NCBI GenBank assembly: GCA_951640195.1
Contig: OX621170.1
Coordinates: forward strand, 1,674,001 to 1,738,000
Direction: 5' to 3'
Source of the DNA: Porpolomopsis calyptriformis
Lineage: Eukaryota; Basidiomycota; Agaricomycetes; Agaricales; Hygrophoraceae
DNA: 64,000 nt
Shown here: positions 32,863 to 62,436 of the stretch, piece by piece
Layout: every line of letters starts with the position of its first letter
Numbering within the stretch: position 1 is the stretch's first letter
Notes under the pieces: model-generated
The model's input: only the letters and a program-made list of their open reading frames with translations
Told to the model about the DNA's origin: nothing
Database searches by the model: none
Made by a program: the position numbers and the translations under genes

Positions 32863-32865
32863 TAG

Positions 32866-33021: not shown

Positions 33022-33149
33022 CCTTCTTGCTCACTCCATGCTATACAACCTTTACTCTGTCTAGCCAGCACTGAAGGTCTTCACCCACCAGATCACTTTC
33101 ACCCCCCAGATATTAACATCGATTAGGCTTGCTCTCTCCCCTTGTATTC

Positions 33150-36100: not shown

Positions 36101-38034
36101 TCCTCTCAATGAGCTCCTATGAAAGGATCAAGAATGGATTCGGACCCCTAGGCAACAATGTGCTTTTGATACCCTCAAGAATGTGCTTACCTCTGCTCCT
36201 ATTTTGAGAACCCCAAAGCCAGACCTTCCTTACCTTCTAGAGACAGATGCCTCTGGTGTTGCCCTGGGTGCAGTGTTATCCCAGAAAGAGAATGATGAAG
36301 AAGATTGGCACCCCATTGGCTTCTACTCCAAGACCCTCCTCCCAGCTGAACAGAATTATCCTACCCATAACTAAGAGCTTTTGGCCATTATATCTGCCTT
36401 GGTTGAATGGAGATACCTCCTGCAAGGGACATGACAGCCCATTATGATCAAGACTGATAACCAGTCCCTCCAATACTTCATGACCTCCAGATCATTACCT
36501 GGAGTCTTATGAGGAGGTGGAGGACAAGGTCCTTCTGCCAAAAGAACTTTTTGTCAATGCACTTTTCATTAATGCAATCATCAGTTTATCATCCCCCAAC
36601 TTTTTATCCAAGCTTTGCTTTCATTCCCCCCTACCCCTTCAGATCATGGCCAAAATTGAAGATCCCTCTTCCAGATACACCCATATAGATGGCATTGTGT
36701 GCAATGCTGGAGATCATATAGTTGTGCTAAAGGATGTATCTTTGCGCATGGAAATTATTCGATTGACCCATGATACACCCACTAGTGGCCATCCCGGTAT
36801 TGAGAAGACAAAGGAACTGCTCCTCTGTAATTACACATGGGAAGGTGCCCCACAAGATATCACCAATTACATGAAGTCCTGCCTTGCTTGTCAACAGACC
36901 AAGGTTTACCCATAGAAACCCACTGGACTTCTCCAACCATTACCCCCTCCTAATAAACTGTGGCAACAGATCACTGCTGATCTAATTGTGGAACTCCCTA
37001 ATTCAAAAGGATTTGATGCTATTCTAGTTGTGGTGGACAGATTCACCAAATGGGCTCACTTCATCCCAACAACTGGAAACCTATCTGCTAAAGGAACTGC
37101 TGTGCTGTTTCAAGAACATGTCTGGAAGCACCATAGATGGCCAGAGAAGATCATTACCAATTGAGGAACCCAATTCTCATCAAAATTTGCTACATCATTG
37201 AATGAACTCTTAGGAACCACTTCTGGGCTTTCTACCACCTATCACCCCCAAACGGATGGACAAACTGAATGAACCAATCAAGAGTTAGAGCAATATGTAT
37301 GGCTCTACACTAACTTCATGCAAGACAATTGGAAAGATTGGTTAGCTCTGGCAGAGTTTGCTTATAACAACTGAGAACATTCCTCCACTCACCAATCCCC
37401 CTTCTGGCTTGAATATAGTCAACACCCTTACACCCCCTTATCAGTTCCAACCCAAACCTCAAATCCTAATGCCAACGAGTTTTACGTGCAGCTCACTAGA
37501 GCTAGAGAGAACACTGAAGAATCTCTTCAAAAGACTGCTAACTCAATGAAGCTCTATGCTGATTGAAAACGTCAAAAGGAACCCACATTTTACAAAGGAC
37601 AAAGGGTCTGGCTTGATGCCAAGAATTTGAAAACTAGCCGGCCAACAAAGAAACTGGATGTCCACTGGCTCGGACCTTTTATAATTCTAAAACAAGTATC
37701 ACCTGTAGCTTACTGACTAAAGCTACCACTGTCATGGAGGATCCACCCTGTGTTTCACATTTCACTACTTAAAGCTCTAGAGGAGAATCTTGATCTCCAT
37801 CCCCCCATTGAGGAAGATGATAACCTCTGACCACCTCCAGATGTGATTGAAGGGGAACCCGAGTACAAAGTGGAACATATTCTAAATCATACCCCAGGAA
37901 AATGAAGTCAGCAATACTTAATCAAGTAGAAAGGCTACCCAATAGAGGCAGCTACCTGGGAACCATGATGGAACCTCAAGCACGCAAAAGAGATCTTGAT
38001 GAATTATGAAAAGTCTATTCAAGCAGTGATTTAA
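33150..38034 (+). pseudogene. Copy B gag-pol with chromodomain
   Basis: Same domain order as copy A. Gag has KMNPSDEFSGNPTKF; the zinc knuckle reads CG*FGYFASSC, where copy A has CGRFGHFASSC. The protease reads LIDSGTSGCF, and RT has YIDDIL near 35803. RNase H is cut by a ~110-bp deletion near 36480 that joins the FMTS motif to the sequence before ESYEEVEDK. Integrase (SGHPGIEKTKELL) and a damaged chromodomain end at TAA 38032-38034. Many TGA/TAG stops, for example at the Arg in TGRRIA (TGR*IA) and the Gln in KCQFEKK (KC*FEKK). Inactive. Confidence 0.9.
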
Positions 38035-38123
38035 CTCTCTTTCACAGATACTACTGACATCATGATCATTGAATCTCTTTTTCCCTTTCAATCTCTGACA
38101 ATTATAAGGACATCCCCTTCCCA

Positions 38124-38970
38124 ATGATTATCAAAAGAAGCATGAAATGCCCCACCAAGTTCTTTACACCCACAAGTCAACTGGGAGGCATCCACCTTGA
38201 GAGAACCCCCCCGCTTCTACCTCCAACCTCCTCCCTGATTCCTCTTCCTCCTCTTCCTCGTCCAACAGTGTCTTGGTTACCTGATGGTTCAAGAAGCCAA
38301 GACGACACACTGATACTATTAACAAGCCAGGATAAAATTGAAACTACTGAGGGCTCCCCTTTGCCAAGGTTGAGCACCTACCTGGGTGCCCTGAGACCTA
38401 TGTCCCTTTTATTTCTGGAGCATGTCGATATGAACTCAACTATGACCATCACTGGTACATGTTCGACAAGGACAGCGACTTTGACGACAAGAAGAATCAA
38501 CTCAAAGATTGGCTGGAGGCATACCAAGTTGGGTGCCAACTTTTGATGGTTATACCGGACTAGGACAAATCCAATGTCACCACCCCCACTATCCCTGAAG
38601 ACCCCATCTCGCACTGCATCCATCATGTTGCCAAGCAACACCATACTGCCCAGAATGGCTACCACTCGATGATGGATGCTAAGTATGAAAGGATCCTTGA
38701 CCTGGAGGAGAATACAGTGATGTGTAGAAAGATGGCTGAAACTTGGTTGCGATGTGCCCAGGAGCTGGACAACTGTTACTACTAGTTTGACCCAGATAGA
38801 CACCTGCTTCAACCCCCAGTTTATGACAGCGCGACCTAGGGTTCAGATGCTGTTTCCAAATGAATGGGTATTCCTTATGACCCATTCTAGAGGTGTGGTT
38901 AGAGAAGGTGATATCTACTGGAGAGTTGAGGAAAAGTATACCCAGTGGATAGTCTTTGATCTGACATCTG
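38124..38970 (+). pseudogene. Copy B accessory ORF
   Basis: Collinear with the copy A accessory ORF: MIIKRSMKCPTKFF, then a Pro-rich part, NSKIGWRHTKL, a helical LDLEEN segment in another frame, and REGDIYWRVEEKYTQW. Broken by stops and frame changes. Its presence in both copies shows it is part of the element, not a local capture. Confidence 0.55.
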
Positions 38971-39119
38971 TCCACTCATCCCTCCTCTTCATTGCTCACC
39001 CCTCTCATCACCCCTCTGCCCACCTCTACCATCCCTTTACACCTCCCCTTGACACCTCTCCTTTCTCTCTGAAGAGTCTTCTTAAAATTCAGGATGAATT
39101 TCCTTTTTGTGGAGGTGAA

Positions 39120-39540
39120 TGTCAGAGATATATTTTTTTCCTTTTCTTTTACTTGTCTATTCCTATTTACATCAGACAGTTTACATCAATAACCACTTAG
39201 CCACCCAAGCTCCACTTAGTAATAGAAGGTGACCAAGCCATACCTATATTTAGCCCACCATCATTTTCCTTCACATTCCATGTGACTCATCCATAGTCAC
39301 TATGACTCATTTGTATTTAGACTCATACGTAGTCATCATGACTCATATGTAGTCACTATGACTCACATGTAGCCAGTATGACTCATATGTAGCTAGTATA
39401 TAAAGCCAGCAGTAGATAGACTTAGGATAAGTCTGTTTCTTTTGTTAAACACCCTAATCAGTAGTCTGCCAACCCTTTAAAACCCTACACCCAGAGCCTG
39501 AAGTAAAACCTTGAAATCAACCCTAGACTGCCATCTAACA
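39120..39540 (+). repeat. 3' LTR of copy B
   Basis: 421 bp, TGTCAG..TAACA. Carries six ATGACTCAT-type units (39281-39394) before its TATA box (39397). Confidence 0.93.
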
Positions 39541-40106
39541 CTTGTTCACTACAGAAGGCATTTTGGATGGACTGTTCACACCCTATGCAGTGTCAAATGC
39601 CTGTTGGCAAATAGTGTGCTACATATCCATAATCGTGAGGATGTGGATGAACATATGCCCATCTCAGCTAAGTCAGTCAGTTTTTTCCCCTTCCATACTT
39701 CACCACATTGGATTGGGCCAGGGAAGAACAGGAACACCATGTGTTCGATGCACTCCTTCAGATGATTCCAGGTCTCAAGCAACACTGTAGGAGTGTTGAA
39801 CACTCTACATGCTGAAACAAAGTATTTCCTTATCTGGTACACAAAGGTATTTACAGTATATATACTTCGACACTGTAGCCACTGACAATAATATACCAGA
39901 GAATGAGAGATTACACCCCCAGAATCATATCATAGACCCTCACTGTTGATACCCAGGACCATGACCTTGCTGTGCAGTCCCACCCCCCTTGACTGCCTTA
40001 CAATGCCTATTAAAGGGCTCTGATAAGGAGATTGTATCAATAGCTAACTTGGTATTTGCTAAACAGTTCTCTGGGTGACCCTCTAATTTACTTCTTACCA
40101 AGCTTC
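39541..40106. other. No recognised gene
   Basis: Sequence between copy B and the DUF6698-like remnant. Only short unrecognised frames. Confidence 0.4.
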
Positions 40107-41046: not shown

Positions 41047-42666
41047 TCATTTTGTATCCATTTCCATTCAATGAAATCCTTTGTGTAGTTGGCAAATTCC
41101 CCAAGATTTGCCACATTCTCTCAGACATCAATAGGTACCATGTGTTTGTATTGGACTGATACTGATGGTAACCTGTACTGCTATTGTCCTCTTAAGTATT
41201 AATCTGATTGTCTTTGCTCTCATCTCCCATTCAAATGCTGCCAGGTAAGAGATGACATTGTGTGAAGCCAGCTATATTCTCTATTATACTGGCAAACATT
41301 GATAATTACAGCTTACGCTGCTCTGGATGGCATATCCTGGCTACTGTCCCCATGTTTATCAGATGGAATGAATTCATAATCATTGTTATGAGTCCCATAG
41401 ATTGCTGAGATTATAATCATTATATTATCTTTGCATCTTCTCAATCCTTAAAATCCTTATAAATAACCTGTCAAAATGACCCAATTATTTGGCTAAAATG
41501 AGCTGCAACACCTTATAAATAACTTGTCAAAATGACCCAACTATTTGGTTAGAATGAGCCAAAAAGCAGTACATTATTCACTCAATATACTAGTGTCCAA
41601 TAAGCTGGCAAACAGGTGATATCCATCCTCACACCATTCTCAAGAACCAGGTGAATTCAGACATAAAAGTAGTCATAATCATCTTCATTAAGCACCACAT
41701 AAACCAGTGATTATTAGCATATATGGGGGATTTTTACCAACTTACCAGCTGTCATTCACCATCTTTCTGGGTGTTTCATTTGGTGATTTATACCTGGTCA
41801 AGACCCTACAGTGATATAGTATAGGTAGAACACTTATCCCGCCCATATCTACTCCTACATGCATCTACCCCCACCCCCACTCCTGCCCATATCTGCTCCC
41901 ACCTGGATCTACCACTCCCCCCACTCCTGCCTACATCTGTCCCCTGCCCCCACTGCCACAGCTCCTAATATTCTACACACCAGGAAGCTATCATGCTGGG
42001 GGCCATCATGCTGGATCTCCACCCTTGTATCAATTATCATCTGGGTTTGGAAATGATCCATTCATGAGTACAATTCCTCACTTGAAAAATAAAAGAGGCT
42101 TACCTGAAAACCCTCAATCCATGTGGGGAGGAAACTATAACCCTCTAGTCCAAAGCAAAAAATGAATGTTTTGTGTTAAGTACAATATGTTACAGAAACA
42201 AATATGTACTAGGTAATGAATGCTTAATGGTATGTTCTAGTGGCCTCCCCAAAAAGAGTATATACTACTCCCCTTGCAGTGAAGCTAAGAACAGGCATGT
42301 CTTGATCAACCTGTTCCAGCCCTGCACTAACAAGGTGAGAATCAGGGTAGCAGCAGACTAACAACTTACAGATCTGAAGCTAGACTAGTTGGCTGTAGCT
42401 GCAAGGTATGGTGCAGAGGAGGCTATGTCACTGGCATACTGAGGTGAGGGGCTAGAGTAAGTATGTTTGAATCACATGCTTGTGGACTTAGCATTTTTCT
42501 TTTTTTAAATTTCAACTTTGGCTTATCCAGCCCTACTCCAGGTTAGGATATGAACAGCACCAGCTATCCTGAAGACAGCAAGGCCAAAATGTGTATCAGT
42601 TTTTGTATAGAGCTTTTGTGCATAGCCTCAGTCTAGAGATACTTGCAGTATGGTTTACTGCTGTTA
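41047..42666. other. AT-rich relict DNA left of element D
   Basis: No gene recognised. A C-rich patch lies at 41860-41960. Repeated 'accttataaataac..tgtcaaaatgaccca' style duplication near 41455-41545. ggtga-rich motifs near 41620-41800 recall those at 7.96-8.06 kb. Confidence 0.4.
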
Positions 42667-43017
42667 TGTTATGGCTACTTCATTTTGTCATCCTAACCAC
42701 TTTCCTTATCTTTGGTTTTATCTTATCTTATCTTCCCTTATCTAATCTTTCTGTTTATATATCCTCCTAGATTAGAGGTGATAATGCTATTGGCCAATGA
42801 AGACATGCTCTGCAGTAGCTGAACATTGGTCAGCTGTTCCATGGATCATAGCCATGGTTATCACAATCACAGTCCAGACCCGGGTAGAGTATAAGTAGAG
42901 TACAGAACACTGTTACCTTCCCTAGTTCTGTTATTCAACATTGTCACTGCTAGTTTATGCGCTAGCTTCTTTGTGACTTACGCCCAAGCGACCTGAGTAC
43001 CAACTGCTGACATAACA
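42667..43017 (+). repeat. 5' LTR of D
   Basis: 351 bp, TGTTATGG..GACATAACA; matches 60836-61186. Confidence 0.92.
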
Positions 43018-43199
43018 GAAGAATAGAACTCACTCTCACCTCGCTTATCTTTGCAAGAGTTGCTGGTCAATCTTCACCTCACACCAACCATTTTTGCTTT
43101 GAGTTATCAAGTAAAAACTGTTGCTGTTGCCTCCCTGGAATTCTGATAGGCTCCCCTCAACTGACCCATCCTCTTTCACTCTGGAAACCATGAGAGATG

Positions 43200-43713
43200 C
43201 TTTGGCACATCCTTGCACAGTACTAGGTGTGACCACCACCCTGGATTGATCTTCCTCCACCCTGCCTCCATCCTACTCTCCCCCACATCAGCCCCCTCAG
43301 GCTTCAACAAGTCAGCTCATCAGCTACTCAGAACAGCAAGACATTGATGCTTTAGAAGTCAACCAGGACCAACTCAAAGCTATTGCACTCGAGTTTTCCC
43401 ACCTCGCATTCGACATCACCCCTCCTATTTCTGCCAACCTTTCCCCTGCTTCATCTCATTCTTCACTTTCTCTTAACTCATTCTACACTGCTCCTTTGCC
43501 TCTGGATTCCTCAGATGGTCTCAATCCCTTTCTCAAAATCGAACTTCAAATGTTTAACTACATCCATGTCAGAATCTTTTTTTCCCTAGTCCTTGTTGCA
43601 AACTTCCCTGCCTCCTTCATCCATGTCTTCTATTGTCATGGATCCTCTGGTCACATCAGAGAGATTCACATCTAGGATAATCTCACACCATGCCTCCCCA
43701 TCCAGGCCACCGA
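43200..43713 (+). pseudogene. D gag, N-terminal part (interrupted by C)
   Basis: Open but frame-shifted fragments such as SYSEQQDIDALEVNQDQLK and LNSFYTAPLPLDSSDGL. The sequence is cut at the C insertion and continues at 54004 with FRLTDDKLEFQDAIDNSEIY. No catalytic motifs expected here. Confidence 0.55.
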
Positions 43714-44255
43714 TGTAGGAGATCCACTCTCCCTATGAATGGAAAACCTTTCCATCACACACGAGCTCAACCTCACCAAATCCGTATACACATATCCCAA
43801 AACCCAACCCTTCTGACTTTCCGATAAATGTTCTGATAACGTTCGCCTCTAACCAGAGGACTTCCGAAAACATGAACTCCTTCGGAAACACCTCAAACTG
43901 ATCGGAAAGTTTCTCTTCTTTGTTTTCCTTATCTTATCTACCTTTTCCTATCTTCCTTTCGCCTATCTACCTAATTTCCACTCACATATTCTTACAAAGG
44001 AACTATCCTTTGTACACATACCTACAAAGAAGTTCCTTTATTCACCTCCTCTATATATATCAAGTAGATAATTACTAAAGAAGACAGACACACCTTCCCC
44101 AATACATACTTTCCCTTCCTACCCAATATATTAAGCCTTCATAAGCTTGAAACCCCTGTTCATCATCATCTGATTACTGAATCAGTTCATACGTGTTCCA
44201 ATACCCCTTGGACGAATGAGAGGAATCTCCCCAAAGATCCCTCATGCCTTCTACA
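43714..44255 (+). repeat. 5' LTR of C
   Basis: 542 bp; TATA-like ctatatatat near 44050. Confidence 0.93.
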
Positions 44256-44259
44256 TAAT

Positions 44260-44275
44260 TGGAGCCCACCGCGAG
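44260..44275 (+). promoter_or_regulatory. Primer binding site of C (tRNA type)
   Basis: TGGAGCCCACCGCGAG, 4 nt after the LTR. Starting TGG fits pairing with a tRNA CCA end. No complementary copy was found in the LTR, in contrast to A/B, D and F. Confidence 0.65.
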
Positions 44276-44469
44276 GGGTTCTAACACATCCGCTTTTCAG
44301 TATTCTACCACTCCACCACTCCGCACACCTCAACTGCTCTTCACAATCCTTACCCATCCTCCCAACATCTACACCCACCTCCGACTCCTCGGACAAGCTT
44401 ATTATTGAAGCTCTTATCAACCCCTCAACCTCAGCTTCCCTTCTCAACACCCCTTTAGAAGGAAACATA

Positions 44470-46497
44470 GACCTTCCACCTGCAAGAAAAACACCCCTCA
44501 CTACACTCCCCAACATTGCACCTATTCCCACTCCCTCAACATCTTCCCCCACCAGGGCCAACCCGGCTCGAATACCTTTCCGACACTCCTCTGGTGCCCC
44601 CCTCTTCGACGGAAACCCCACACACCTCAACTGATACTTCTCTGACATCAACATGATGTACACGACCCTCGGAATGAACCCTACTGATGAGGAACGAATC
44701 ACTCACACTCTGTATTTCCTAGACAATGACGTTGCTCTCCTTTGGGAAACGCTCCACCCTGGAGCAACCAACCCCTGGACATGGAACTCCTTCAGAGATG
44801 ACATCTGAACACTCTACCCCGGTTCCAACACCAACGACACCCTGCACAATGTCGCGGACCTCAAATGATTTACTTAGGAAACCGCTTCCAAAGGGGTGTA
44901 TACCTGAGGCAATCTAGGAGAGTACTTCTGAGAGTTCACCCGGATCTCATCCCACCTCTTATGGACCAACTGGATCGATCAATGGACTGTCAACAGACTA
45001 TTTGCCCAAGGCTTCAGAATATCTACCCTGCGCCAGATTGAACACAGACTATCCATCACCATGCCGAATCATCACCCCGATGAACCATATCCCATGAAAG
45101 ACATCAACAATGCCGCCCAGTTCCTCCTTTGTTCCACTTCCCCAATCACTTCGCTGCCACCCATCACCCCCACCACATCCCGCACAACCCCCAAAATAGA
45201 ATCAAGTAATACCATCACCATGGCAAACCTCATGACCACCATGATGACAATGATGGAATCCATGATGAAAAACCAACCCGATTGACCCCGGAATTACCCA
45301 ACTCTGATGGACACCTGCCCCCAACAGCAGACTAACCCATGTATCTTTTGCGGATCTCTAAATTGTCGCATCCAGACATGTGTTATGGCTGAAGAGTTTA
45401 TAAGAGCTGGGAAGTGCATCCGGAATGATCAAAGACAAATGGTTCTTCCAAACGGCAACTACCTCCCTTGGGACATCACTGGCAACACCCTCTCAGAGAA
45501 ATTCAACAATTGGCATGGTGCCAATCCTGGAAACCTTGCCTCACTGGCCCCCGTCATCACTGCTGCTATCATTGAGATGATTCCCCCCTCGGATCCACAT
45601 TCTACATATGACACAACCACTTCCCCACTCCCCTTCTTCCTGGAAGATATCTCGTCTTCATCCGAAGACGACAACACACTCACAGTCCTCCATACTATGC
45701 TCGGAAACGAGATTGCCAAGAAGGCAGAATGAAACAAGAACCGGAAAACCCCTCCTCCCAAACCTGGACCAACATCAAAACCCATTGTTGAAATCCCGCC
45801 TTCTAACATACACAATCCAATCCAATCCGTTCCGACCCCACAACCTAAAGAACCCCAATTCCAGTTCCACTCCCCTGCCGAAGATCCAGTCCTAACGGAC
45901 TAACTATACAACAATGTCCTTGGAGCCACTGTCACTACCACGGTCGGACACCTCCTGGCATCACATTTGGACATCCGGAAAAGGATCAAAGATCACACCA
46001 CCAGCAAACATACCCCTGTCAACCTATCGGACAACTCAGACGACCCTGTTTCCAGCTTCTATACCACGCCAAACTCACCCGACAAAGATACTATTGTAGC
46101 CAACAATGCCTCCGCCATCCGGGTAATCGACGTCCTCCTGGATGGAAGACAGAAAGAGGAAGCACTCCTCAACACCGGAAACGCGATAACCGTCATTCGG
46201 AAAGACATCTGGGAATGACTTGGTATCCCGATCTGATCCGATCTTATCATGCACATGGAGTCATCACACTCTACTGTCGCCCCCACCCTAGGAGTTCTTA
46301 AAAACCTCCCGGTCATTATCGGACCCTGTACCTTCTACATGCAGGTGCAGGTAGCGGAGAAACTACCTTGCAACATGATCCTCAGACAGCCTTTCTATCT
46401 CCTCACGAACCTAGATAGCAGGATCAATCTGGACGGCTCACAACACATCAACATCACGGATCTGAACACCAGAAAAAGGATTAAAGTATCCACATGA
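44470..46497 (+). pseudogene. C gag and protease
   Basis: Reads SGAPLFDGNPTHLN*YFSD, LLWETLHPGATNPWTW, SKGVYT*GNLGEYF*EFTRI, then Met-rich TMANLMTTMMTMMESMM, a zinc motif CIFCGSLNCRIQTC, VLPNGNYLPWDITG and a Ser/Pro region. The protease-like VIDVLLDGRQKEEALLNTGN follows, and the frame ends near VSTEPRAQ-like sequence with TGA. Most stops are TGA where the family has Arg. The expected protease Asp (LLD..) is Asn (AAC at 46171-46173), one CpG transition from GAC. Confidence 0.85.
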
Positions 46498-46799
46498 CCA
46501 CGAGCCCAGAAGCCCAACAAGAAACTCATCCCCACGGGTTTTTAAATGTTGAGAGTATGGATTATACCCAAACCCCTGTTCCAGTTTCTACACCCTCACC
46601 ATCTGTACTCTCGGGTTCTATCTCCCACCAAGCTTTTGTCATGAAATTGGCGTTCACTCTCTTAAAATTCCTCTCTTTTCTTCATTCTTTTCCTTTCTTT
46701 TCTGTGCCTGTTCTCTTTGGAAGGGGGGCTGTCTTTATTGGCAGCAGAAACTACTTGTACAAAAGGAGGAGTCCAAGTCCGACTAATAAGAAACCTAAA

Positions 46800-47629
46800 C
46801 TAGTCCATCTTGGCAATCTCCTGCACCATACTATCTCTCAAGAACTCTACAAAACTAGAAACTACTTGACCATCTAAAGCGGCCAACTTATTACCCCAGT
46901 AGATTGCCCTATTAGTATCACCACTGGAGGCCTGCAACTCAGCAGCCTTCCCCTCAATGAAACTCACTGCTATCTTTCTCGCTTCCTCACCCAACCAATT
47001 GTTGGTGGGACTCCACAACAAACTGGGAGGAATTTCTTCCTCCTTGATCTTAATGTTGACATTAGTCAATGATGATGACAAATCTTCCACTAAGAATAAA
47101 GAGTCAACAATCACGAAGAGGGTGAGAGAATTGAGAGCTTACCACTAGATAAAGGACTCATTGGACCAGGGGTCCAAGGACGGAAGGGGAGACTGGCAGC
47201 CCAGTCGACTGCCTCCTTCTTGACAGAAGGGAGGGAATCAGCCCACTTGTCAGACCCCCAATTAACCTGCTCCTCCAAAGGGAGCTGGGAAGTAGGGGGA
47301 GGGGCATCATCATCCCAAGCTAAGAAAGGGAAAGCCTATTATCAATAAACACAGACTAATAAAGACAAAACAAAATACTCACCAAGCGGATCCTCCATCA
47401 AACCGCAAGCATGCTGGATTGGCCAGCGAACGAACGGACACTTCTTGACTTTGTGCTTGCCACCGCAAGCAAAGCAGGAGAAGGAAGACCAACAGAGGTC
47501 GGCGTCAGAGGGGATGCGCTGGAGGTAGTAATGAAACAAATCGCAATCGAGAAAGACAGGAGCAGTGCGGTGCACCACTCCAGACTGCTTGAAGAATCGG
47601 ACGTAGTAGCCTTGGTGGGAGGGAGTCAT
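46800..47629 (-). CDS. Intact spliced zinc-knuckle-like gene within the solo LTR
   Basis: Three exons on the minus strand: 47629-47383, 47319-47143 and 47089-46800. Introns are 47320-47382 and 47090-47142; all ends are GT..AG and phases agree. They encode 237 residues without a stop. The first ATG after the TATA box gives MTPSHQGYYVRFFKQSG. A compact CxxCGGKHKVKKC motif (CX2CX3HX4C) resembles a zinc knuckle. Then come an acidic Pro-rich DDDAPPPTSQLP, a Trp-rich KWADSLPSVKKEAVDWAASL part and a helical C-terminus (YWGNKLAALDGQVVSSFVEF). CpG is retained, unlike the surrounding C gag-pol. A decayed copy lies at 61413-62257. Zinc knuckles bind nucleic acid; the real role is unknown. A gag-like or regulatory protein is possible. 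Confidence 0.8.
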
Positions 47630-47652
47630 GATGATTGACAAGGATTGAACTG

Positions 47653-47686
47653 AAGCGTAGGGATACAACCCACACCTTTTATATGC
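47653..47686 (-). promoter_or_regulatory. TATA box and putative transcript start/self-primer of the solo LTR
   Basis: Minus-strand CATATAAAAGG (TATA from 47684). CAGTTCAATCCT begins at 47653, 31 nt downstream. Spacing matches copies B (32 nt), D (34 nt) and F (about 29 nt). Confidence 0.6.
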
Positions 47687-47774
47687 TCAGACACAAAGGG
47701 AAGACCAAAAAGAGGTTCCTCAGTCAAAGAAGAGAAACCCGATACGCCGGGCAAGAGATAGAAACAACGGCGAT

Positions 47775-47886
47775 CTCATGACTAGAAGAACAATAGGAAC
47801 CAGTCATGAGACAGCACAGCCTAATACTGCGGAAGGCTATGCCCAATAGAGTTGAGTCATCAAAACAACACAGCCTTCTGCAGTAT
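47775..47886. promoter_or_regulatory. Inverted repeats between divergent promoters
   Basis: CTCATGACT (47775-47783) faces AGTCATGAG (47802-47810), perfect over 9 bp. ATACTGCGGAAGGCT (47824-47838) faces AGCCTTCTGCAGTAT (47872-47886), 14/15. TGAGTCA at 47854 and TGACTCA near 47955 are bZIP-type sites. A second TATA (tactatataaaccc, 47983-47996) faces right. Confidence 0.6.
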
Positions 47887-48135
47887 GACTAAGAACAATG
47901 GCAAACCTTAAACCAGAGGCTGTGAACAATAGAAAATGGGGTGACTGCAGAGGTTGACTCATAATGACTCCTATTTTAGAAATACTATATAAACCCTGAG
48001 GGTGAAGCGGATCATCACTTCGTCCTCCTGTGAGATTACTTGTAGTAGCATGAACGCAATCAGAATCATCAGACTTCTTTTCCATCAGAACAAGAAAAGA
48101 GAAACACAAAACCATAACTACTGAGCCAACCGTTC

Positions 48136-48378
48136 ATGCCCATATTCCCTAAACTCTCAGCACAGGCACGCAACAGATTCAACCCGCAGAACAACTTCTT
48201 TGTAGAAGTAAAACTTAATTCAGAAGGAATCATTACTCTATATGAAGACGTCCCTGTCAGAACTTTCTTCTATATCCTACTAGACTTATTGAGCTCCAAG
48301 GCCTGCCTTGTGATTAACGAAAAGACTTGCAACTACAGTTGTGACAGCTTTGATTCCACCCACGCCGTCCACACCTAA
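48136..48378 (+). CDS. Small divergent ORF, 80 residues, unknown
   Basis: MPIFPKLSAQARNRFNPQNN.., then a hydrophobic VRTFFYILLDLLSS segment. It lies about 140 nt downstream of the plus-strand TATA at 47983 and diverges from the zinc-knuckle gene. The last ~10 residues run past the presumed LTR edge into C pol, so the original 3' end may be lost. No family recognised; could be a chance frame. Confidence 0.35.
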   Translation: MPIFPKLSAQARNRFNPQNNFFVEVKLNSEGIITLYEDVPVRTFFYILLDLLSSKACLVINEKTCNYSCDSFDSTHAVHT

Positions 48379-51300
48379 CAACGTATCTGTTTCCCCACAC
48401 CCAACCCCCACTTCTCCGACCCCCCTGAACAACATCATCCGCTCCCACATATCGGAACGATCCCAGAATGACCTAAATGATGATCACCCCTGCGGACAGG
48501 GAGCAACCTTCGACATCCCTCTCTCCGACATCCCAGACTCCCTTCTCACTTCCGTATCTGTACACGAATCCTCCTTAGCTGATTATGTCACAGATATCGA
48601 TGAATATGATTACACTCATGCCACCTATGCTGGAAAGAAATATAAGAAAGTGGCGGACCATGTCCTGCCTATCAAGGGAACGCTACCCGAAGAATTCTGC
48701 ATTATCTGATGTCAACACCCTGATCCATTGGCTGACCTTCCATCACTTCCCTTCCATCCACCGCCATTTACACCAGGCTCCATTTACACCCAAGAATGGA
48801 AAGACAAGCACAATGTCAATCCCGACGGATTCCTATGGCCTGAAGAAGAAACCCTTGCCCACCACATAATCAAAACCCAGGAACAAGCATTCGCCTGGGA
48901 GGAGACTGAGAAAGGTTGTTTTCTGGAAGAATTCTTTGACCTGATCCTCCTCCCCACTATAGAACACATCCCTTGGGTTCTTAAAAACATTCTGATCCCA
49001 CCCGGAATCTTTGACGCAGTCCTTAAAGTCATCCGCGAAAAGATCTCCACTGGCATGTACGAAGAGTCTAACTCATCCTATCGCTCCCAATGGTTCTGCA
49101 TGCTCAAGAAAGACGGGAAATCTCTCCGACTTGTCCACGATCTCAAACCCCTTAACAAAGTCTCAATCCGCGACTCCGCAGTTCCTCCGCTCACAGAACA
49201 ATTTGTGGAATCCTTCGCCGGAAGAGCCTGCTATAGGTCCCTCGACCTATTCGTATCCTTTGACCAACGCGACCTCAATCTCCAATCCTGAGACCTCACC
49301 ACCTTTCAAATGCCACTCGGAGCTAAACGTCTAACCTCTATTCCTATGGGATATACCAACTCAACACAAATTATGCACGGAGATGTCACCCACATCCTCC
49401 AAGCAGAAATCCCTCATGTTGCAAGCCCCTTCATAGATGACGTACCCGTTAAAGGCCCAGAAACCCATTACGAACTCCCAGGAGGACTCTTCAAGACTAT
49501 TCTGCAAAACCTGCACATCTGAAGGTTCATATGGGAACATCTCAACAACCTCAACCGAGTCCTTCACCAGATGAAAATCCTTGGTGGAACCTTCAACAGA
49601 AAGAAGACCACAGTATGTGCCCCCACTGTTGTAGTCATTGGACACATATGCTGTTATGAGGGACGAATTCTGGATGAATCCCAAGTACAGAAGATCCGAG
49701 ACTGGCCTATCTGCCAAGAGCTTACCCATGTCCAATCCTTCTTAGGGACCTGCGGAGTCCTCCAAATCTTCATCAAAGACTTCGCGCATCACACCCAACC
49801 CCTCGTAAATCTCACTAAAAAGGACGTCCCCTTCTGCTTTGAAGAAGAAGAAATCTGATCCATGGAAACCCTTAAAAACGCCATCATCAACTCCCCCACT
49901 CTCAAACCAATCGATTACCACTCTGGACGGCCCGTCATTTTAGCCATCGACTCATCCGTGTATGCCGCCGGATTCATATTGCAACAACAGGGAGAGGATG
50001 GCAAGCGCTACCCATCCTGATTCAGATCAATTACCTGGAATGAATGTGAGTCCCGATACTCACAAGCCAAGCTCAAACTATACGGACTATTCCATGCCCT
50101 CCGGGCATATCGAATATGGCTCATTGGTCTTCCGAAATTCACGGTAGAAGTCGATGCCAAATACATTAAAGGCATGCTCAACAATCTGGACATCCAGCCC
50201 AATGCAGCCGTCAACTGATGGATAGCCGGAATCCTCCTATTCGACTTTGACCTTGTCCACATTCCTGCCCATCTACACTCTGGTCCCAACGGACTATCCT
50301 GAAGACCTCCCACTCCTGAAGACGATCCCTCTGATGATGATCATGAGGAATGGATCAACCGATCCTACGCCTTCGCGGTAGAGCTCATCAACTGGAATCG
50401 ACTCGAAATCATCCTGAACCATTCACACATTGCATCACCTTACCTATCTTCACTAAACAACCTCTCGGAACCTCCCACCTTCTCTGTCCTCACTACTACA
50501 GACAGCCCACTACCCATTCCTCAATCGGAAAAAGCCCTTTTGCAAGACGCCTACCTTCGGACCATTCACAACTTTCTTATCACCCAAAGATGCCCACCCA
50601 ACACCTTGGATGAACAATATAAACGACTCCTACGCACCGCCTCTGACTTCTTTGTATTCGACAACTGTCTCTGGCACACAAAGCCCAATGGAAGACACTA
50701 GCTCATCGTCCTGGAACCTCATAGACTAGATATCATCCAACAGGCTCACGACAGACTAGGCCATAAAGGCCCCTTTATCACCCAAAACCGATTGCTTGAC
50801 TGCTTCTAGTGGCCCTACATTGATCATGACATCCGATGGTTCATCCGAACTTGTCATCAATGTCAGATCCGCCAAACCAAATGGATCTTCATCCCTCCAA
50901 CAGTTCCCACACCAGCTCACCTATTCCGACGTGCCCACATCAACACCATGTTCCTACCCAAGTCCAACGGCTACAAACTCCTTCTGCATGCCCACTGTTC
51001 CCTCTCTGGTTATCTGGAATGGTGCCCGCTGAGAATGGAATCAGCTAGGGCTATCGGATCCTTCATTTTCAAGGAACTTCTATGTCAATGGGGTGCTCTT
51101 GAAGAGATAATCATGGACAATGGAGCCCCATTCATCAAAGCACTTGAATACCTCGCTGCGCAATATGGAATCAATCACATCCGAATCTCCCCATACAACT
51201 CCCGAGCCAACGGACTCATCGAGAGACCTCATAGATCCGTCTGGGAAGCGCTCATGAAAGCTGCCAATGGTTTTGAATCCAAGTGGTACAACGTTCATCA

Positions 51301-51835
51301 TTCTGTCCTATGGGCGGAATGCGTATCTATTCAAAGATCCACTGGATTCTCTCCTTACCGAATAGTCCACGGAACTGATCCTCTCTTCCCCTTCAATCTC
51401 ACCCAAGCCACCTTCCTAGTTCCCCCAATGGATGCTCTGATGTCCCCAGCCGATCTACTGGCCACCCGAGCCTGTCAGCTTCAAAAATGAGAGGAAGACC
51501 TAGCCCAGATCAAGCAACGATTACTGGATTCATGATTCAAATCAATTCAGGACTTCAAGAAATGCCATGGAAAGCAAATCCGGGACTACAACTTCAAACC
51601 CAGAGCTCTCATCCTTATCTGCAACTCTTCAACAGAACTGGAACTCAATCGAAAATCGAAGCCGCGATATCTAGGACCCATGCTCATTGTCAGATAAACC
51701 TCCCATGGCACCTACATCATTTTGGAACTCGACGGAGCAGTTTCCAAACTTCTGATTGCTGCCTTCCGCATTCTCCCATACTTCCCCCGCTTGCATGCAT
51801 CACTCCCGATCACACAGATCATCTCACAGAATAAC
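48347..51835 (+). pseudogene. C RT, RNase H and integrase
   Basis: Starts in a Pro/Ser-rich linker, then CGQGATFDIPLSDIP, VLPIKGTLPEEFCI, and RT (SQWFCMLKKDGKSLRLVHDL, IPMGYTNS; active site FIDD at 49430-49441). RNase H (LAIDSSVYAAGFIL; YGLFHALRAYRIWL) and integrase zinc region (RLGHKGPF..FIRTCHQC) follow. In the integrase core the first acidic residue seems replaced (HINTMFLP, AAC at 50942, where the family has HIDTM), then DNGAPF and ANGLIERPH. About a dozen stops, mostly TGA at Arg sites (LQS*DL, AVN*WIA, GLS*RP). Inactive. Confidence 0.87.
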
Positions 51836-51963
51836 TCCTTGCCAGATGGACACGTCTCGGATGACTCCAATTCATCCTCGGAAACTGACTGACACATACC
51901 AGGACTTATCCTCACTTAGTTTCACTTAGCACTCACCCTCTCGCTCATTTTCATCTAACTCCT

Positions 51964-53325
51964 TCACAATTCTTCTATTCTAAACAGGACTATTACATAG
52001 CCCATTTCTTTCCCTTCCCCTTCTTTTCTGACCCCTTTTCCATCCAAGCCATTAATCTGTCCGTCTGCTTGTCTGTCTCGGCCCGCGCTCTCCTCCAACC
52101 CTCCAACGCTCTTGGCTTCCCTCATAATGGCCTTTCGGACTGTGTTCCACTTCTCCTCCAACCCCACCGCCCAATCCTCTATCGCCTTCTCCATCTTTCC
52201 CCCAATCTCCCGAAGCTCCGAGAGCCTCCGGTGCCCCTCCCGCACCGTCCCACTGTCCACACTCACCTGCCACGCCCTCTTCCGGACCTGGGTGTCCATC
52301 TCCTCCTCGCTCTCACCCTCGTCTCCACTCTGGTCCTCCTCACCCTCCGAATCCACCACCATCACCTCCCTCACGTTCCCCTTCATCTCCCTGGACCCTC
52401 AGACTTGCCTTACCAGCCTCGGAACTGGCCTCAGAACTGCCTTCGGAGGCTGCTTCTGCCTTGGCTTCACCTCCACACTTGCCTTCTGCTTTGACCCGCT
52501 GGACTTCGAACACGACACGTGGTCCTACGCACATGGACCACATGCCCCACCTCCCGGATATTTGATGCACGGGACCAGCTGCTTGGCGCAGCAGTTGCAT
52601 GCCGGCTCATGACACTAAAAAAAATGTATATTAGATCATACACGCTATAGAAATAAAAGACAATACTTACCTGCACGGCGGATTTGACCCGTCCACCCTT
52701 CTTCGACGTTTCCTCCCCCGCCCCGACCTCATCCTCACCATTCCTGATGCGCTCCGACGTCTCCATTGCTGTTCCCCCCCTCTCTGTCATTATGACCGAA
52801 GGTTCCTCTGATGCCTTCAATCCGGCCCCCAGCATCTTCTCCCGGTGGGCCCTCACTCGTTCAACCCACTCCCGCTTCTCCTTCTCCTCCTCCTCTCCTC
52901 CTCCATCTTTTCCATCGTCCTCTCTGCTACCTCTTCAGCCTCCCGCCTCTCCTCCGCGATTGCCTCGGCCCGCGCCTCTTCCTCTATCGCCCTCTCCTTC
53001 TCTTCCATCACCCTCCTTTCTGCCTTCCACTGCTCCCTGTGCTTCTCGTACACCTCACTTATCTCCTCTGCGAGATCTTCCACCACTCGGGGAATCTCCT
53101 CCCCACCCTCTATCATCTCCAGGAGTCTCACTAAAAAGTTTGTCTGCACAGACTGATTAGTCCTGCGTCAAGACATATCGAATAAAGACTTACCATGCGA
53201 TCCGCGTTCTCCAGCACCCAGGTGTCGTACCCGGAGCTTTCTGGTCCCTCAGGACGGAGGGCCGACATGTCTTGAAGCTTGATTACCAGACTCTTGAAGT
53301 CTGTCTGTTTGTTGTCATTGGACAT
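51964..53325 (-). pseudogene. Antisense spliced accessory gene of C (coiled coil plus Cys cluster)
   Basis: Between integrase and 3' LTR, opposite to gag-pol. Exons: 53325-53194, 53143-52671 and 52614-51964; introns 53144-53193 (50 nt) and 52615-52670 (56 nt) with canonical ends. The start MSNDNKQTDFKSLVIKLQDM is about 140 nt from the 3' LTR. Exon 2 is a long Glu/Arg coiled coil (EEISEVYEKHREQWKAERR). It contains a one-base length error in a GAG-rich run near 52905, after which the frame gives WVERVRAHREKM. Exon 3 opens with a Cys cluster (CHEPACNCCAKQLVPC..GGACGPC) like fungal Zn-cluster proteins. It has a TAG near 52527 and a TGA near 52405, then acidic and helical parts. About 419 residues if repaired. 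Role unknown; DNA binding is a guess from the Cys cluster. Confidence 0.65.
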
Positions 53326-53461
53326 CGTCGAGGTTGTTGTTCAAGAGAGAAAATGGTGACATGTCACATACAATCACACGTAAAAGCAGTCAACAAAATC
53401 ACATGACTCAACTCTATTCTCGCACCAACCAGGGACGGCTGGTATCTAACTACCCCGGATA

Positions 53462-54003
53462 TGTAGGAGATCCACTCTCCCTACAAATGGAAAACCTTTC
53501 CATCACACATGAGCTCAACCTCACCAAATCTGTATACACATATCCCAAAACCCGACCCTTCTGACTTTCCGATAAATGTTCTGATAATGTTCGCCTCTAA
53601 CCAGAGGACTTCCAAAAACACGAACTCCTTTAGAAACACCTCAAACCAATTGGAAAGTTTCTCTTCTTTGTTTTCCTTATCTTTTCTACCTTTTCCTATC
53701 TTCCTTTCACCTATCTACCTAATTTCCACTCACATATTCTTACAAAGGAACTATCCTTTGTACACATACCTACAAAGAAGTTCCTTTATTCACCTCCTCT
53801 ATATATATCAAGTAGATAATTACTAAAGAAGACAGACACACCTTCCCCAATACATACTTTCCCTTCCTACCCAATATATCAAGCCTTCATAAGCTTTAAA
53901 CCCCTGTTCATCATCATCTGATTACTGAATCAGTTCCTACATGTTCCGATACCCCTTGGACGAATGAGAGGAATCTCCCCAAAGATCCCTCACGCCTTCT
54001 ACA
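53462..54003 (+). repeat. 3' LTR of C
   Basis: 542 bp, followed by ccga. Upstream at 53355-53366 lies the perfect palindrome GTGACATGTCAC. Confidence 0.93.
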
Positions 54004-55728
54004 CCGACACCCAAGCTTCAGGCTCACAGATGACAAATTAGAGTTCCAGGATGCCATTGACAACTCTGAGATTTACTCACCCTTATCATCTCAGATTCTC
54101 GACCCCTTGACTCCTTCTGTCTTCTCCATCCTCAGATCTACCACTCTCCCTGCTCCCACTCTGCAACTGACAGATACACCTTCACCTTTCACATTTGGAT
54201 GTCCTTGTTTTCTCTGAACCCTGCAACCACTCTCTTACTCATCATCCACTCCCATGAAAATGAGTGCCTCAACCTCCCCACAATGACCACTCCTGGACCC
54301 CCCTAAGAAACCGAAAGACTCTCCTCCACCGAGAAGGTCTCCTTCCTCCTCTGAACCGAATTCCACCCCTCATTCCTCTCCAGTTCCTTCTCCTACTTTG
54401 TCTCTGCCTTTGAACCTGAATCCACTCTCTCCCTCGCAAATGACACCCATAGCCTCTGTCTCCAAAATGATTAAACTCACACAACCCGATGTCTTCAATG
54501 GCAACAAGAAACTTTACAAGAACTAGTTTTGCCAGGTTATTATCTTCCTTTGCAGCAGTGAAGTTACTGATCCCGAGAAGATGATACTGGTCACCTTGTC
54601 ATACATGAAAGAAGGTATCGCTGCTAAGTGGGCCTAGCAATATGTAGATGCATACTTTGGCCAGACAGACCCTATCACTGGCAACATTGTCCCCCTTGGT
54701 CCATGGAAGGATTTCACAGATGTTTTAGATGCAGTCTTTACCGACCATGCCATGGAGCAGCATGCTCATGAGGAAGTCAAGCATTTCTCACAAGGATGTT
54801 TAGGTATTATAGATTATTTCATCAAGTTGGAAGTCTTGTTCTGCCAAGCTGGCCTTGTTAGCTAGGATAAAGAATGCATCAGCATCATCAAGAAGAATGT
54901 CCACCAGGATATCATTCATCAAATTTACATGTTGCCCCTGCTCCCCACCACCTACCCCAGGTATCACAAGAAGGTTGTGGCCATCAGCCAACTGTTGGAA
55001 CATTTCTGTGAACAGGAATGATGCCAACACCTATTGGCCCCTCCCACTTATCCATCTTTCCATCCCTCTACTCCACATTTCCATCCCCCACCCCCTCAAG
55101 ATAAACAAGTGCCATCAGGCATCATCCATGGTGGCTAGGGGTTACCCATGGACTTGAGCAAGATGTGTCAGACCAATCAATGTTACAATTGTGGTCAGAT
55201 CGGACATTTCTGTTAGGACTGTTCCCAGGAGCTCAAGAAGGTCAATGTTCATGCTCTCCAGCATGAGCTGACTATCGATGAGATTTCAGAGCTAATGAAC
55301 TTCCTTTCTGCAGAGGAACACAGCTCAGACGAACCTGCCCTGACAACAACAATCAGGATTTTAGCAACGGTCGATAGAGGTGTGCTTGCTCTATTCGACA
55401 GAATCATGTTTGCTTTAGCATTGCAAACAGATAGTACTGGACATCCTTTTAGTTACCCCTTCCCCTCTTTCTCTTCTTTGTACCACCATGACGGCATGTA
55501 CATTATCTGATACCAACAAGTCCATCAATGAAATTTGTCCCACCCTGTCTATGCCAGATGTGAACACTAAGTGCTCTGAATCCCCCACTCCTCCCATCCC
55601 TGAATCATTGTCTCTCCCTTCTGTCAATTCAATCAACATTGACTCTCTTTCTTCCCCCTTGGATATTGTTAACGCAATTAAGGAACAGGCTAATCAAGCA
55701 ATCCCAATTCTTCAGAAATGGTCCCACC
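54004..55728 (+). pseudogene. D gag, main part
   Basis: Continues D gag after the C insert. Pro/Ser-rich region (TPGPPKKPKDSPPPRRSPSS), gag core KLTQPDVFNGNKKLYKN*FC, VTLSYMKEGIAAKWA*QYVDA and HEEVKHFSQGCLGIIDYFIK. Zinc knuckle CYNCGQIGHFC*DC (about 55182), with a stop where a basic residue is usual. Several stops and frame changes; cut at 55728 by TRIM F and resumes after 56764. Confidence 0.8.
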
Positions 55729-55931
55729 TGTTAGAAATTGTACTGGGAATGTACGCATTCAGATGACAGTCAAGACCACTTGACTAAAACATCATAGAAC
55801 TGGACTTACCCAGTTCGGTTGTTCCCAGTATATATACCAGATTACATGTGATCAGCTAGAATCTGCTCGACGTACATGAGAGACAGCCTCAGCGCACCCA
55901 ATCTCATGTCTCGAATTTCAGATTCGTGACA
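55729..55931 (-). repeat. LTR of F (left)
   Basis: 203 bp, TGTTAG..GTGACA in plus reading; partner at 56562-56764. Confidence 0.92.
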
Positions 55932-56561
55932 TTCACCTCCACTTTATGAATGTCTGTCCCGGACATTGCCAGGTACAGCCAACCCAATAGTGCACAGAGT
56001 CAAACTCTATGGTACACATAAGACACCTATCAGAGGCTGAGGGAACAGCAACACTGGTGGTCCAGCGGTCTACTGCCATCTCAGCATGATACTTTGGGTG
56101 TAACCCATCAGCCTTCACATAATCCTTGATTCGGGTGAGGTCCATCTCGGACAGCCTTGCTCTGTATAGAGACTAGCTATCTAGGGCCAAGCCCAGCTAC
56201 TGCATTCATAGCGGACTCCACCCCTCTAAAGTGGAGTGACTGATCCTTTTATGTCAGTGTCACTGACGGTCCACAACACCCTATCTTTAAACTCCGGGAT
56301 GATGGCGATCAAACACACCTTGGCTTATTTATACTCGAGGTCCTCGAGTTGGAGTTGCAGTAATCAGAGGGACCATGCTCAACAGAGTTAGGGAGACCTT
56401 CAATACTCAGACACATCTCGTTAGAGGTCAGGGTAGCCTTGACCAATCGCATATGTCCTTTTGTAATGCAACATGTGCGCATATCAGAATATATCTTATA
56501 GGGACTTTAATTCTGATGTGTGAAGGATTCAAACTCTCGACCGCATGTGAAGTCCAGTTCT

Positions 56562-56764
56562 TGTTAGAAATTGTACTGGGAACGTACTCATTCAGATGAC
56601 AGTCAAGACCACTTGACTAAAACGTCATAGAACTGGACTTACCCAGTTCGGTTGTTCCCAGTATATATACCAGATTACACGTGATCAGCTAGAATCTGCT
56701 CGACGTACATGAGAGATGGCCTCAGCGTGCTCGATCTCATGTCTCGAATTTCAGATTCGTGACA
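56562..56764 (-). repeat. LTR of F (right)
   Basis: 203 bp, followed by ccgcc. Differences from the left copy are nearly all transitions. Confidence 0.92.
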
Positions 56765-56864
56765 CCGCCCTACCCAATTACTGGAAATGACTTAGACCAC
56801 GATCAATCAAATCAATGCCCTCTCAACAGAGAATGCTATCCAAGCCCTCCATGAACTCAAGGAA

Positions 56865-59800: not shown

Positions 59801-60330
59801 CAAGAGAAGTTCGAAATAAATCTGCAACTTAATTCGCCAATCGAATGAAAAACATCCATCAGGAAGCTGAAGCCATGCTCAAGTAAGCCAATGAAATGAT
59901 GAAGACTGCTCATGACAAGCATGTCTGAGCTGCTCAAGAATACTTGCCAGGAGACAAGGTATGGCTAGCTGCCACCAATATCAAAACCAAATGACCAATG
60001 AAGAAGCTTGACAACAAACACTTTGGCCCTTTCAAGGTCATTGAGAAGGTTGGCCATTCTGCCTACAGACTTGATCTCCCCCATGAGTGGCTAGAACTCT
60101 ATCTGGTTTTCAATGAATCCTATCTCTCTCCTTCATTTCCAAACCAGAAAAAACCTAACCCTCCTCCTCCAATCCAACTAGAAGGCAACTCTGAATATGT
60201 CATCAATGAAATTCTGGACTCTTATCTGCAACAAGGAAAACTCCAATACTTGGTACACTGGGAAGGCTACACCAGTGAGGAAAACACCTGGGAACCCAAG
60301 TCGAATGTTAAGAATGCCTGGAATTAGTGG
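56865..60330 (+). pseudogene. D protease, RT, RNase H, integrase and chromodomain
   Basis: Protease-like ALVDSSCEGLCID (about 56960). RT: PEYLHEFQDVFTKEDFNELP, HPILDYRKLNDMTVKNQYPL, VYIDDILIF (about 58030). RNase H: LLHVETDASNYTLGTILSQK, VWTDHTNLQYF, LNRCQAR*. Integrase: NPLSGYYGSFKT, YVRGCETCQ, TIMVDLIGPIPE; the core is frame-shifted after 59400. Chromodomain: EILDSYLQQGKLQYLVHWEG then TWEP, ending near 60327. RT to RNase H (57378-58740) is the best-kept block, with TAG/TAA/TGA stops such as VC*GYNN. Inactive. Confidence 0.9.
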
Positions 60331-60392
60331 ATGAGTTTCATGCTCTCCATCCCAAATGACTAGCTCCTCAACTCCAACTATGCATCATTTGA

Positions 60393-60641
60393 ATGGACGA
60401 CTTCTTTAGGATTGATGAATGCCTCTATGATCCAATTACAGACTCTACTAGCGAGGATTACAAACTGCCAAAGGTTAATAACAACATTGATGTTCTCATT
60501 CCACTTCAGCCCACAGAAGTCGACCAACTACTCAATCGTGATTTTAACAGCTCCATTTTCCTTCCCTGTCTACCTTCAGCTGCTCATCAAGCATGGATAT
60601 ATGAGACCAGCCCTATCAATACAGTTACAGCTGTTCTATAG
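60393..60641 (+). CDS. D small ORF between chromodomain and 3' LTR
   Basis: 82 residues, MDDFFRIDECLYDPITDSTS.., open from ATG to TAG and followed by related sequence (SGYYKTVQDISNTCSNVAWM) in another frame up to the PPT. May be the remains of a longer accessory ORF. No family recognised. Confidence 0.35.
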   Translation: MDDFFRIDECLYDPITDSTSEDYKLPKVNNNIDVLIPLQPTEVDQLLNRDFNSSIFLPCLPSAAHQAWIYETSPINTVTAVL

Positions 60642-60835
60642 GTGGATAATTGGGGTCAAATGCTCAAATGTACCAGCTTGTTTCCCCTCTGTCCACCCTA
60701 GAAATTTGTCAATGATATCAGTATCATCTCCCAACCTCCCCCTGTTATGCACCTCAGTGGTTATTACAAGACTGTTCAAGATATCTCCAATACCTGTTCT
60801 AATGTTGCATGGATGCAAATTTGAAGAGAGGGTGA

Positions 60836-61412: not shown

Positions 61413-62257
61413 GTAGCTACTGATTGACTTCCCATAAGGAATTAAATATGTTTATTATTGAATCTCCAATTTTGACAGCTAGTTCGAACTGTGATATAAA
61501 ATATTATATTTGATTTGTTTCACTACTACCTTCAGCATATCCCCTCTGATGCTGACCTCTATTGGTTGTCTTTTTCCTGCTTTGCTTACAGTGGCAAGCA
61601 CAAGGTCAAGAAGTGTTCATATGTTCACTAACTGATCTAGCATGCTTGTAGTTTAATGGAGGATCTGCTTGGTGAGTATCTTGTTTTGTCTTTATTAGTC
61701 TTTGTTTGTTGATAATAGGCCTCCCCTTTTTTCTAGCTTGGGATGATGATGCCCCTCCCCCTACTTCCTAGCTCCCTTTGTAGGAGCAGGTCAATTAGGG
61801 GTCTAATGCTTGGGGGAACCCTCTCCCCTCTTCCAATCCCCAGTCCAACAATTGGGCTGCCAGTCCCCCTTTTCATCCTTGGACTCCTAGTCCTATAAGT
61901 CCTTTGTCTAGTAGTAAGCTCTCAACTCTCTTGCTCTCTTCATAAATGCTGACTCCTTATTTCTTAGTTGAAGACTTGTTGGGGTCATTAACCAATGTCA
62001 AGGTTAAGACTGAGGAAGATGACATTCCTCCTAGTCTGCCATGGAGTCTGACCAATAACTAGTTAGGGGAGGAGGTGAGGAAGATAGCAATGAGTTTCAT
62101 CAAGGGGAAGGCTGAGGAGTTGCAGGCCTCTGGTAGTGAAACCAATGGGGCAATTTATTGGGGGAACAAGTTGGCTGCCTTAGATAGTCAAGTAGTTTCT
62201 AGTTTTGTTGAGTTTCTAAGGGAGAGCTTAATACAGGAGGTAGCCAAGATGGAATAG
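61413..62257 (+). pseudogene. Decayed second copy of the LTR zinc-knuckle gene (element E)
   Basis: Same exon/intron order as 46800-47629. A degraded first exon (CSGKHKVKKCS-like, about 61585-61610) is followed by MEDLLG and its GTGAGT donor. AWDDDAPPPTS comes next (about 61738), with a stop where SQLP is expected. The last exon is well kept from 62075 (MRKIAMSFIKGKAEELQASG) to TAG 62257. Many C-to-T changes relative to the intact copy, for example CGTCCG versus TATGTT in exon 1. It lies directly upstream of the presumed LTR end of element E. Confidence 0.7.
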
Positions 62258-62436
62258 TTTCTTTGGATAGCTAATCAGACATGGACTCCCCCTTTTGTAC
62301 AAATAGTCTTTGCTGCCAATAAGGACAGCCCCCTCCAAAAAGAGAAGAAAAGAGCAGAATTTTAAGAGAGTAAATGGTAATTTTATGATACCCTCTAATA
62401 TGAGAAGTAAAACCATTCAACTACTAAATCATAACA
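62258..62436 (+). mobile_element. 3' portion of element E's 5' LTR
   Basis: About 130 bp matches the DNA after the stop of the intact gene (cagccccc, aattttaagagagt). It ends ATAACA at 62436, followed at once by AGAATTGAACTTCC, which resembles the A/B and F junctions (TAACA then AGAA..). The left limit of this LTR is unknown; D may interrupt it. Confidence 0.55.

Follow-up and report, generated by a model that had tools for sequence, protein, structure and literature searches.

An antisense three-exon gene within U3 of the LTR of a Ty3/Gypsy element, probably self-priming, in Porpolomopsis calyptriformis

Conserved extra genes antisense to gag-pol are carried by LTR retrotransposons of plants such as maize Grande (gene23), rice RIRE2, and Retand (TRP28); the antisense gene of Grande has its own promoter, and a nuclear or DNA-binding role is suspected for the products (excerpts of PMC7264820 and PMC11963269). 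Such genes lie mostly between pol and the 3' LTR (excerpt of PMC7264820). The plant gene is present there once per element, whereas in the element considered here the gene lies wholly in U3, is doubled, and is split by introns. From a solo LTR the plant gene would be lost.

Among retroviruses, HBZ of HTLV-1 is antisense and spliced, has a promoter in the LTR, and suppresses Tax transcription, and its promoters are TATA-less (excerpt of PMC9822710), whereas the antisense gene described here is preceded by a TATA box. It also differs from HBZ in that coding sequence, introns, and signals are all in U3 and that a bZIP match is absent. The antisense transcripts of HTLV begin in the 3' LTR, and only part of the HBZ coding sequence is inside the LTR. 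The sag gene of MMTV does encode an extra protein in U3, on the sense strand; the gene considered here is likewise in U3, but on the antisense strand, and both of its introns lie within the LTR. As for priming, the primer binding site (PBS) of Tf1 and Tj1 is complementary to the 5' end of the RNA (excerpt of PMC4600332). The present element has a PBS of the same kind as that described there, and its integrase carries an SH3 domain of the Tf2-1 type. The LTRs of Tf1 and Tj1 are short and are not known to hold a gene. A literature search, conducted mostly outside subscription journals, returned no spliced antisense gene wholly within an LTR.

The DNA analysed (the window) is a stretch of 64,000 nucleotides, C8:1674001-1738000, from an assembly of 33.5 Mb in 17 contigs. 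Within it, the initial annotation had picked out positions 46547-48346 as an LTR that encodes a spliced protein. We read the locus, with a probability of about 0.9, as a solo LTR of a self-priming Ty3/Gypsy element, an LTR that codes on both strands and has an antisense three-exon gene in U3. The limits of the repeat are as follows.

46632..46636, target duplication GCTTT, left copy (flank comparison)
46637..48346, plus strand, solo LTR of 1,710 bp with TG..CA ends, TGTCATG...GTGACA (copy boundaries, target site duplications, both ends of full elements)
46637..48015, plus strand, U3 (polypurine tract at the 46637 side; right limit at the putative transcript start)
48347..48351, target duplication GCTTT, right copy (flank comparison)

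When the genome was queried with the block 46547-48346, 46 matches were obtained from the best 40 of 310 candidates. Among those listed, 40 of 46 reach the right end of the block, and in 42 of 46 the left edge falls at block position 83-93 (about 46637 in the window), which sets the left boundary of the LTR at 46637. The limits first proposed were thus exact on the right and wrong on the left, where 46547-46636 is DNA of the host element, Gypsy element C, outside the LTR. The LTR-type ends that had been claimed are real: the repeat has TG..CA termini and the target site duplication (TSD) GCTTT. A related Gypsy copy in L011 provides the empty insertion site for this solo copy, and for a second copy the occupied site can be compared with an empty site in L030 and L029. 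Exact 5-bp TSDs flank 18 of 21 end-to-end LTR units, and one more has a TSD with one mismatch; the remaining two have no flanking TSD of their own because they are the LTRs of full elements.

The surroundings are layered. The LTRs of element C (43713-44255 and 53461-54003) enclose the solo LTR, and element D (LTR pieces 42663-43017 and 60832-61186, span 42663-61186) appears to enclose element C, giving three nesting levels. Elsewhere in the window, Gypsy copies at 18029-24920 and 32604-39542 are about 90% alike in opposite orientation; an array of 102-nt repeats occupies 8623-9410, and a different repeat, rich in CAT/CAC, lies at 53-433. In L024 (3229-6645), a copy of the LTR is inserted into another copy in opposite orientation.

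The family is numerous. A 14-mer from the LTR start occurs exactly 224 times in the genome (0 for the reversed-pattern control) and a 12-mer from the LTR end 241 times (4 for the control), counts that are above chance. Among the 100 starts and 97 ends listed, at least 63 pairs are 1,677-1,713 bp apart. If most copies are near full length, simple arithmetic puts the LTR family at roughly 1% of the genome. Interiors are fewer: with up to two mismatches allowed, there are 16 LTR/PBS and 18 PPT/LTR junctions genome-wide (PPT, polypurine tract). Nine of the 16 LTR/PBS junctions find a partner at 5.28-5.33 kb, and the other seven are interrupted or unpaired. A whole element in L036 consists of an LTR, a 5.3-kb interior, and a second LTR, with the TSD GACAG on both sides; a second whole element, in L038 and L023, has the TSD ACCGC. 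The initial annotation had expected a full element to have the block at either end, bordered by TSDs, and these two do, each carrying the gene twice. Five ORF pieces of the L036 interior match, in order, gag with a CCHC knuckle, aspartic protease, RT, RNase H, and integrase (Pfam), the last with its Tf2-1-type SH3 domain; the gag and pol frames contain in-frame stops, and the integrase piece, which ends at a stop, has no Pfam chromodomain match. From its direct LTRs with TG..CA ends, its TSDs and PPT, and the order gag-PR-RT-RNase H-IN, the family is a Ty3/Gypsy LTR retrotransposon. Among 94 RT matches listed, 16 rows from 15 places are 91-100% identical and the next is 51%. The two LTRs differ at 29 of 1,710 sites in L036 and at 40 of 1,708 in the L038/L023 element, nearly always by transitions (29/29 and 38/40, respectively). 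Such an excess between LTRs of one element resembles RIP-like or methylation-linked mutation.

The antisense gene occupies the middle of the LTR.

47677..47683, minus strand, TATAAAA upstream of the antisense gene (seen in all 33 copies)
47629->46800, minus strand, whole gene, three exons, 237 aa (ORF reading, 33-copy alignment)
47383..47629, minus strand, exon 1
47438..47476, minus strand, zinc-knuckle-like CX2CX3HX4C, residues 52-64 (sequence motif)
47320..47382, minus strand, intron 1, GT-AG, 63 nt
47143..47319, minus strand, exon 2
47090..47142, minus strand, intron 2, GT-AG, 53 nt
46800..47089, minus strand, exon 3 with stop codon (all exons and introns: splice reading, copy alignment)
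46734..46739, minus strand, AATAAA, possible poly(A) signal (read in the window copy)

The three-exon structure (46800-47629, 237 aa, CX2CX3HX4C) is exactly as first annotated, exon by exon and intron by intron, and the TATA box reported upstream of it is there. Copies of the family, solo LTRs included, carry this intron-containing protein gene, as the initial annotation had supposed. In a MAFFT alignment of 33 gene-spanning copies (mainly best-scoring matches, with two elements contributing both LTRs and four truncated or interrupted pieces excluded), all four splice dinucleotides (GT, AG) are kept in every copy. Exon lengths are 247, 177, and 290 nt; in 31 of 33 copies any change in them is by multiples of three (the exceptions are L028 and L030), and intron lengths vary (59-64 and 53-58 nt). 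The gene is intact in 16 of 33 copies, among them the one in the window and those in the two LTRs of L036 and the two of the C1:665603 element, and broken in 17; since the sample leans to copies most like the intact window copy, 16/33 should not be taken as a genome-wide rate. Over approximately codons 104-125, exon 2 has two divergent versions of equal length, one in L020b, L023b, L034, L037, and L038, the other in the window and L036; perhaps they arose by recombination between subfamilies.

Selection has evidently acted on the protein. For 14 intact copies, with a single copy taken from each element, NG86 gives an omega of 0.163 (0.14, 0.37, and 0.10 by exon), and the C-terminal third is strongly constrained. 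Other frames give 1.0-2.0, except for one reverse frame at 0.22, a value explained by the coincidence of third positions. Because most changes are transitions, a neutral spectrum was taken from non-coding LTR changes in 31 copies, by base and CpG/CpA context. Against a neutral expectation of 2.21, N/S in the antisense gene is 147/173 = 0.85 (p=2.1e-17), whereas the promoter read as codons, a control whose sites overlap those of the neutral spectrum, gives p 0.20-0.71. N/S is equal for singleton and shared changes in the gene (0.91 vs 0.84, p=0.80), so the relaxation expected after insertion is not seen. In our reading, the singletons of old subfamilies include changes that arose before insertion, and the point does not help the case. 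The antisense protein is under purifying selection.

What the protein does must be judged mostly by analogy. It matches no Pfam family up to E=10, zf-CCHC, bZIP, and TRP28 (PF04195) included, and no NCBIfam family; a PDB search gave three matches, all weak (E 0.26-0.89) and all to molecules unrelated to it. Scans with an exon 1 pattern gave 4 matches in IMG/VR and 27 in prokaryote genomes, none confirmed, and such scans are uninformative for a fungal gene. Exons 1 and 3, each given alone to AlphaFold as a single sequence, were modelled at low confidence (mean pLDDT 47.5 and 48.7). The knuckle motif is kept in 29 of 33 copies. Its spacing, CX2CX3HX4C, differs from the CX2CX4HX4C of the retroviral zf-CCHC, and it may work in the same way. 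By analogy with what plant elements and HTLV encode on their antisense strands, we favor, at somewhat under even odds, a zinc-knuckle nucleic-acid-binding accessory protein that might act in trans on the RNA, the promoter, or the integration of the element.

The protein might instead serve self-restraint, limiting the copy number of its own element, and the solo LTRs would provide a constant dose of repressor. The roughly 200 LTR ends, as against 16-18 interior junctions, would then mean a large supply in trans, and repressive antisense retroviral proteins do exist, HBZ among them (excerpt of PMC9822710). Selection at the level of the element, however, should favor the loss of a self-repressor, and about half of the sampled copies have decayed; we regard self-restraint as possible though rather unlikely. 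It is a good deal less probable that the gene is a captured host gene, a useless passenger whose constraint comes from exchange with a host paralogue. The introns and signals are indeed like those of a host gene, but exon lengths are conserved over LTR lineages, and the constraint is visible in the changes that separate LTR subfamilies, up to dS of about 0.78, hence was felt inside the LTR. Least probable of these three is that only the antisense RNA matters, e.g., as double-stranded RNA with U3 of the genomic RNA, the ORF being incidental. The genomic RNA has U3 at its 3' end, and the antisense RNA would be complementary to that part, but RNA alone would not explain selection at the level of codons, seen in the N/S deficit (0.85 vs 2.21) and in diversities of 0.062, 0.038, and 0.167 at codon positions 1-3.

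The strand of the LTR comes from the joints of the element. The PPT/LTR joint common to L023 and L034, which share the LTR unit and 2 kb beyond it, is AGGGAGGGGGTAA followed by TGTCATGAAATT, a polypurine tract and then the LTR start; the tract precedes the LTR unit in L035 as well and joins the LTR at its 46637 side. (A 12-nt word from the LTR start recurs 94 nt inside the PPT joint in L034, L035, and L023, in the last near 7745-7760, and among the occurrences listed at least six such pairs of words are 94 nt apart.) At the other joint, the sequence directly after the 5' LTR is TTAGGACGAAGTG in 4 of 4 elements. The positions of PPT and PBS in full elements therefore give an LTR that reads on the plus strand of the window, and the three-exon gene is consequently antisense and wholly in U3. 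The features of the sense strand are these.

47684..47985, stretch of about 300 bp between the two TATA boxes, possible divergent promoter
47986..47993, plus strand, sense TATA box TATATAAA (read in LTR copies)
48016..48026, plus strand, putative genomic RNA start CACTTCGTCCT, complement of AGGACGAAGTG just inside the 5' LTR/interior joint
48136..48346, plus strand, first 70 codons of a sense ORF with its start in R/U5 (LTR/interior joints, N/S test)

The word CACTTCGTCCT is the reverse complement of the last 11 nt of TTAGGACGAAGTG and begins 30 nt downstream of the first base of the sense TATA box; from this complement to the PBS at 48016-48026, U3 should end near 48015. The element thus seems to fit the self-priming group of the Tf1 type, with a PBS complementary over 11 nt to the presumed start of the genomic RNA. 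Of 32 readable LTRs, only 14 carry the self-priming word exactly, and 18 differ from it by one transition; the 3' LTRs of the L036 and L038 elements belong to the first group and their 5' LTRs to the second. The antisense gene and the sense promoter are arranged head to head.

The initial annotation had placed the LTR on the minus strand, with a sense gene in R/U5 between the RNA start and the PBS. This was suggested by the TATA box before the gene and by a likeness to element E, which was taken for a family member with the gene just before its PBS.

61512..62390, minus strand, truncated LTR relative within element E's own LTR, about 80% identical over the gene

Element E turns out not to belong to the family: its unit is a truncated LTR lying inside an unrelated Gypsy LTR, and the 47 bp to the right of it (62391-62437) belong to the terminal part of the short Gypsy LTR of E itself, which recurs around L029 5333-5714. 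Apart from one transition, the PBS of E, AAGAATTGAACTT, fits AAGTTCAATTCCT, the start region of that LTR; the complementarity formerly cited as support comes down to one short word in the 5' UTR of the gene that resembles the complement of that PBS. In the real family, the word at the start of the gene has no complement in the interior, LTRs apart; the PPT and PBS of its full elements are at the ends opposite to those that a minus-strand LTR would need, and a sense gene with introns would lose them through RNA, so a sense gene in R/U5 is scarcely credible. Equally so is a free-standing 1.7-kb unit like a DNA transposon, with TGTCA/TGACA ends and 5-bp TSDs, to which most copies, being single with inverted 5-bp ends, might be compared, because the unit is found on both sides of a 5.3-kb Gypsy interior that has a PPT and a PBS, and the TSDs lie outside the pair.

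On the plus-strand reading, the LTR has a second coding region. The first 70 codons of the sense ORF show N/S of 30/53 against 2.14 expected (p=2.2e-9), and in full elements the ORF runs across the PBS. Comparison of the LTR/interior joints of L017, L036, L037, and L038 gives a length of about 167 codons, overlapping the start of gag in another frame, in two of the four copies; in the other two it ends near codons 91 and 97. With a constrained sense ORF besides the antisense gene, the LTR codes on both strands.

These features suggest how the gene may be propagated. In retroviral logic, reverse transcription copies U3 to both LTRs, so each new element would receive two copies of the gene. The genomic RNA would carry the gene as an antisense, unspliced copy; given this orientation the introns persist, since the sense genomic RNA cannot splice them and the antisense mRNA can. 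After integration, a spliced antisense mRNA would be expressed from each LTR, both transcription and splicing being predicted, and recombination between LTRs would leave a solo LTR with one copy of the gene. Selection would act in the replicating lineages, while integrated copies decay, as have the 17 broken copies of 33. More tentatively, the LTR may be a self-contained locus of two strands, with a divergent promoter sending genomic RNA, in which the ORF that opens in R/U5 and runs across the PBS comes first, one way and the spliced mRNA of a trans-acting, nucleic-acid-binding regulator the other. The roughly 200 LTRs without interior might then form a genome-wide reservoir of regulator, a feedback dependent on copy number that would outlive the copies of gag-pol, though we hold this to be doubtful.

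An element that moves through RNA can naturally preserve the introns of a gene by carrying it on the reverse strand, and laboratory retrotransposition reporters use the same trick. Its position in the LTR means that the gene is doubled by every insertion and left behind after LTR-LTR recombination. The usual view is that LTRs are control DNA without coding function and that solo LTRs are dead remnants; in this family each can be a whole gene, introns included. Annotation that masks LTRs would hide such genes. The family offers a concrete system in which to test whether solo LTRs exert feedback on their own family.
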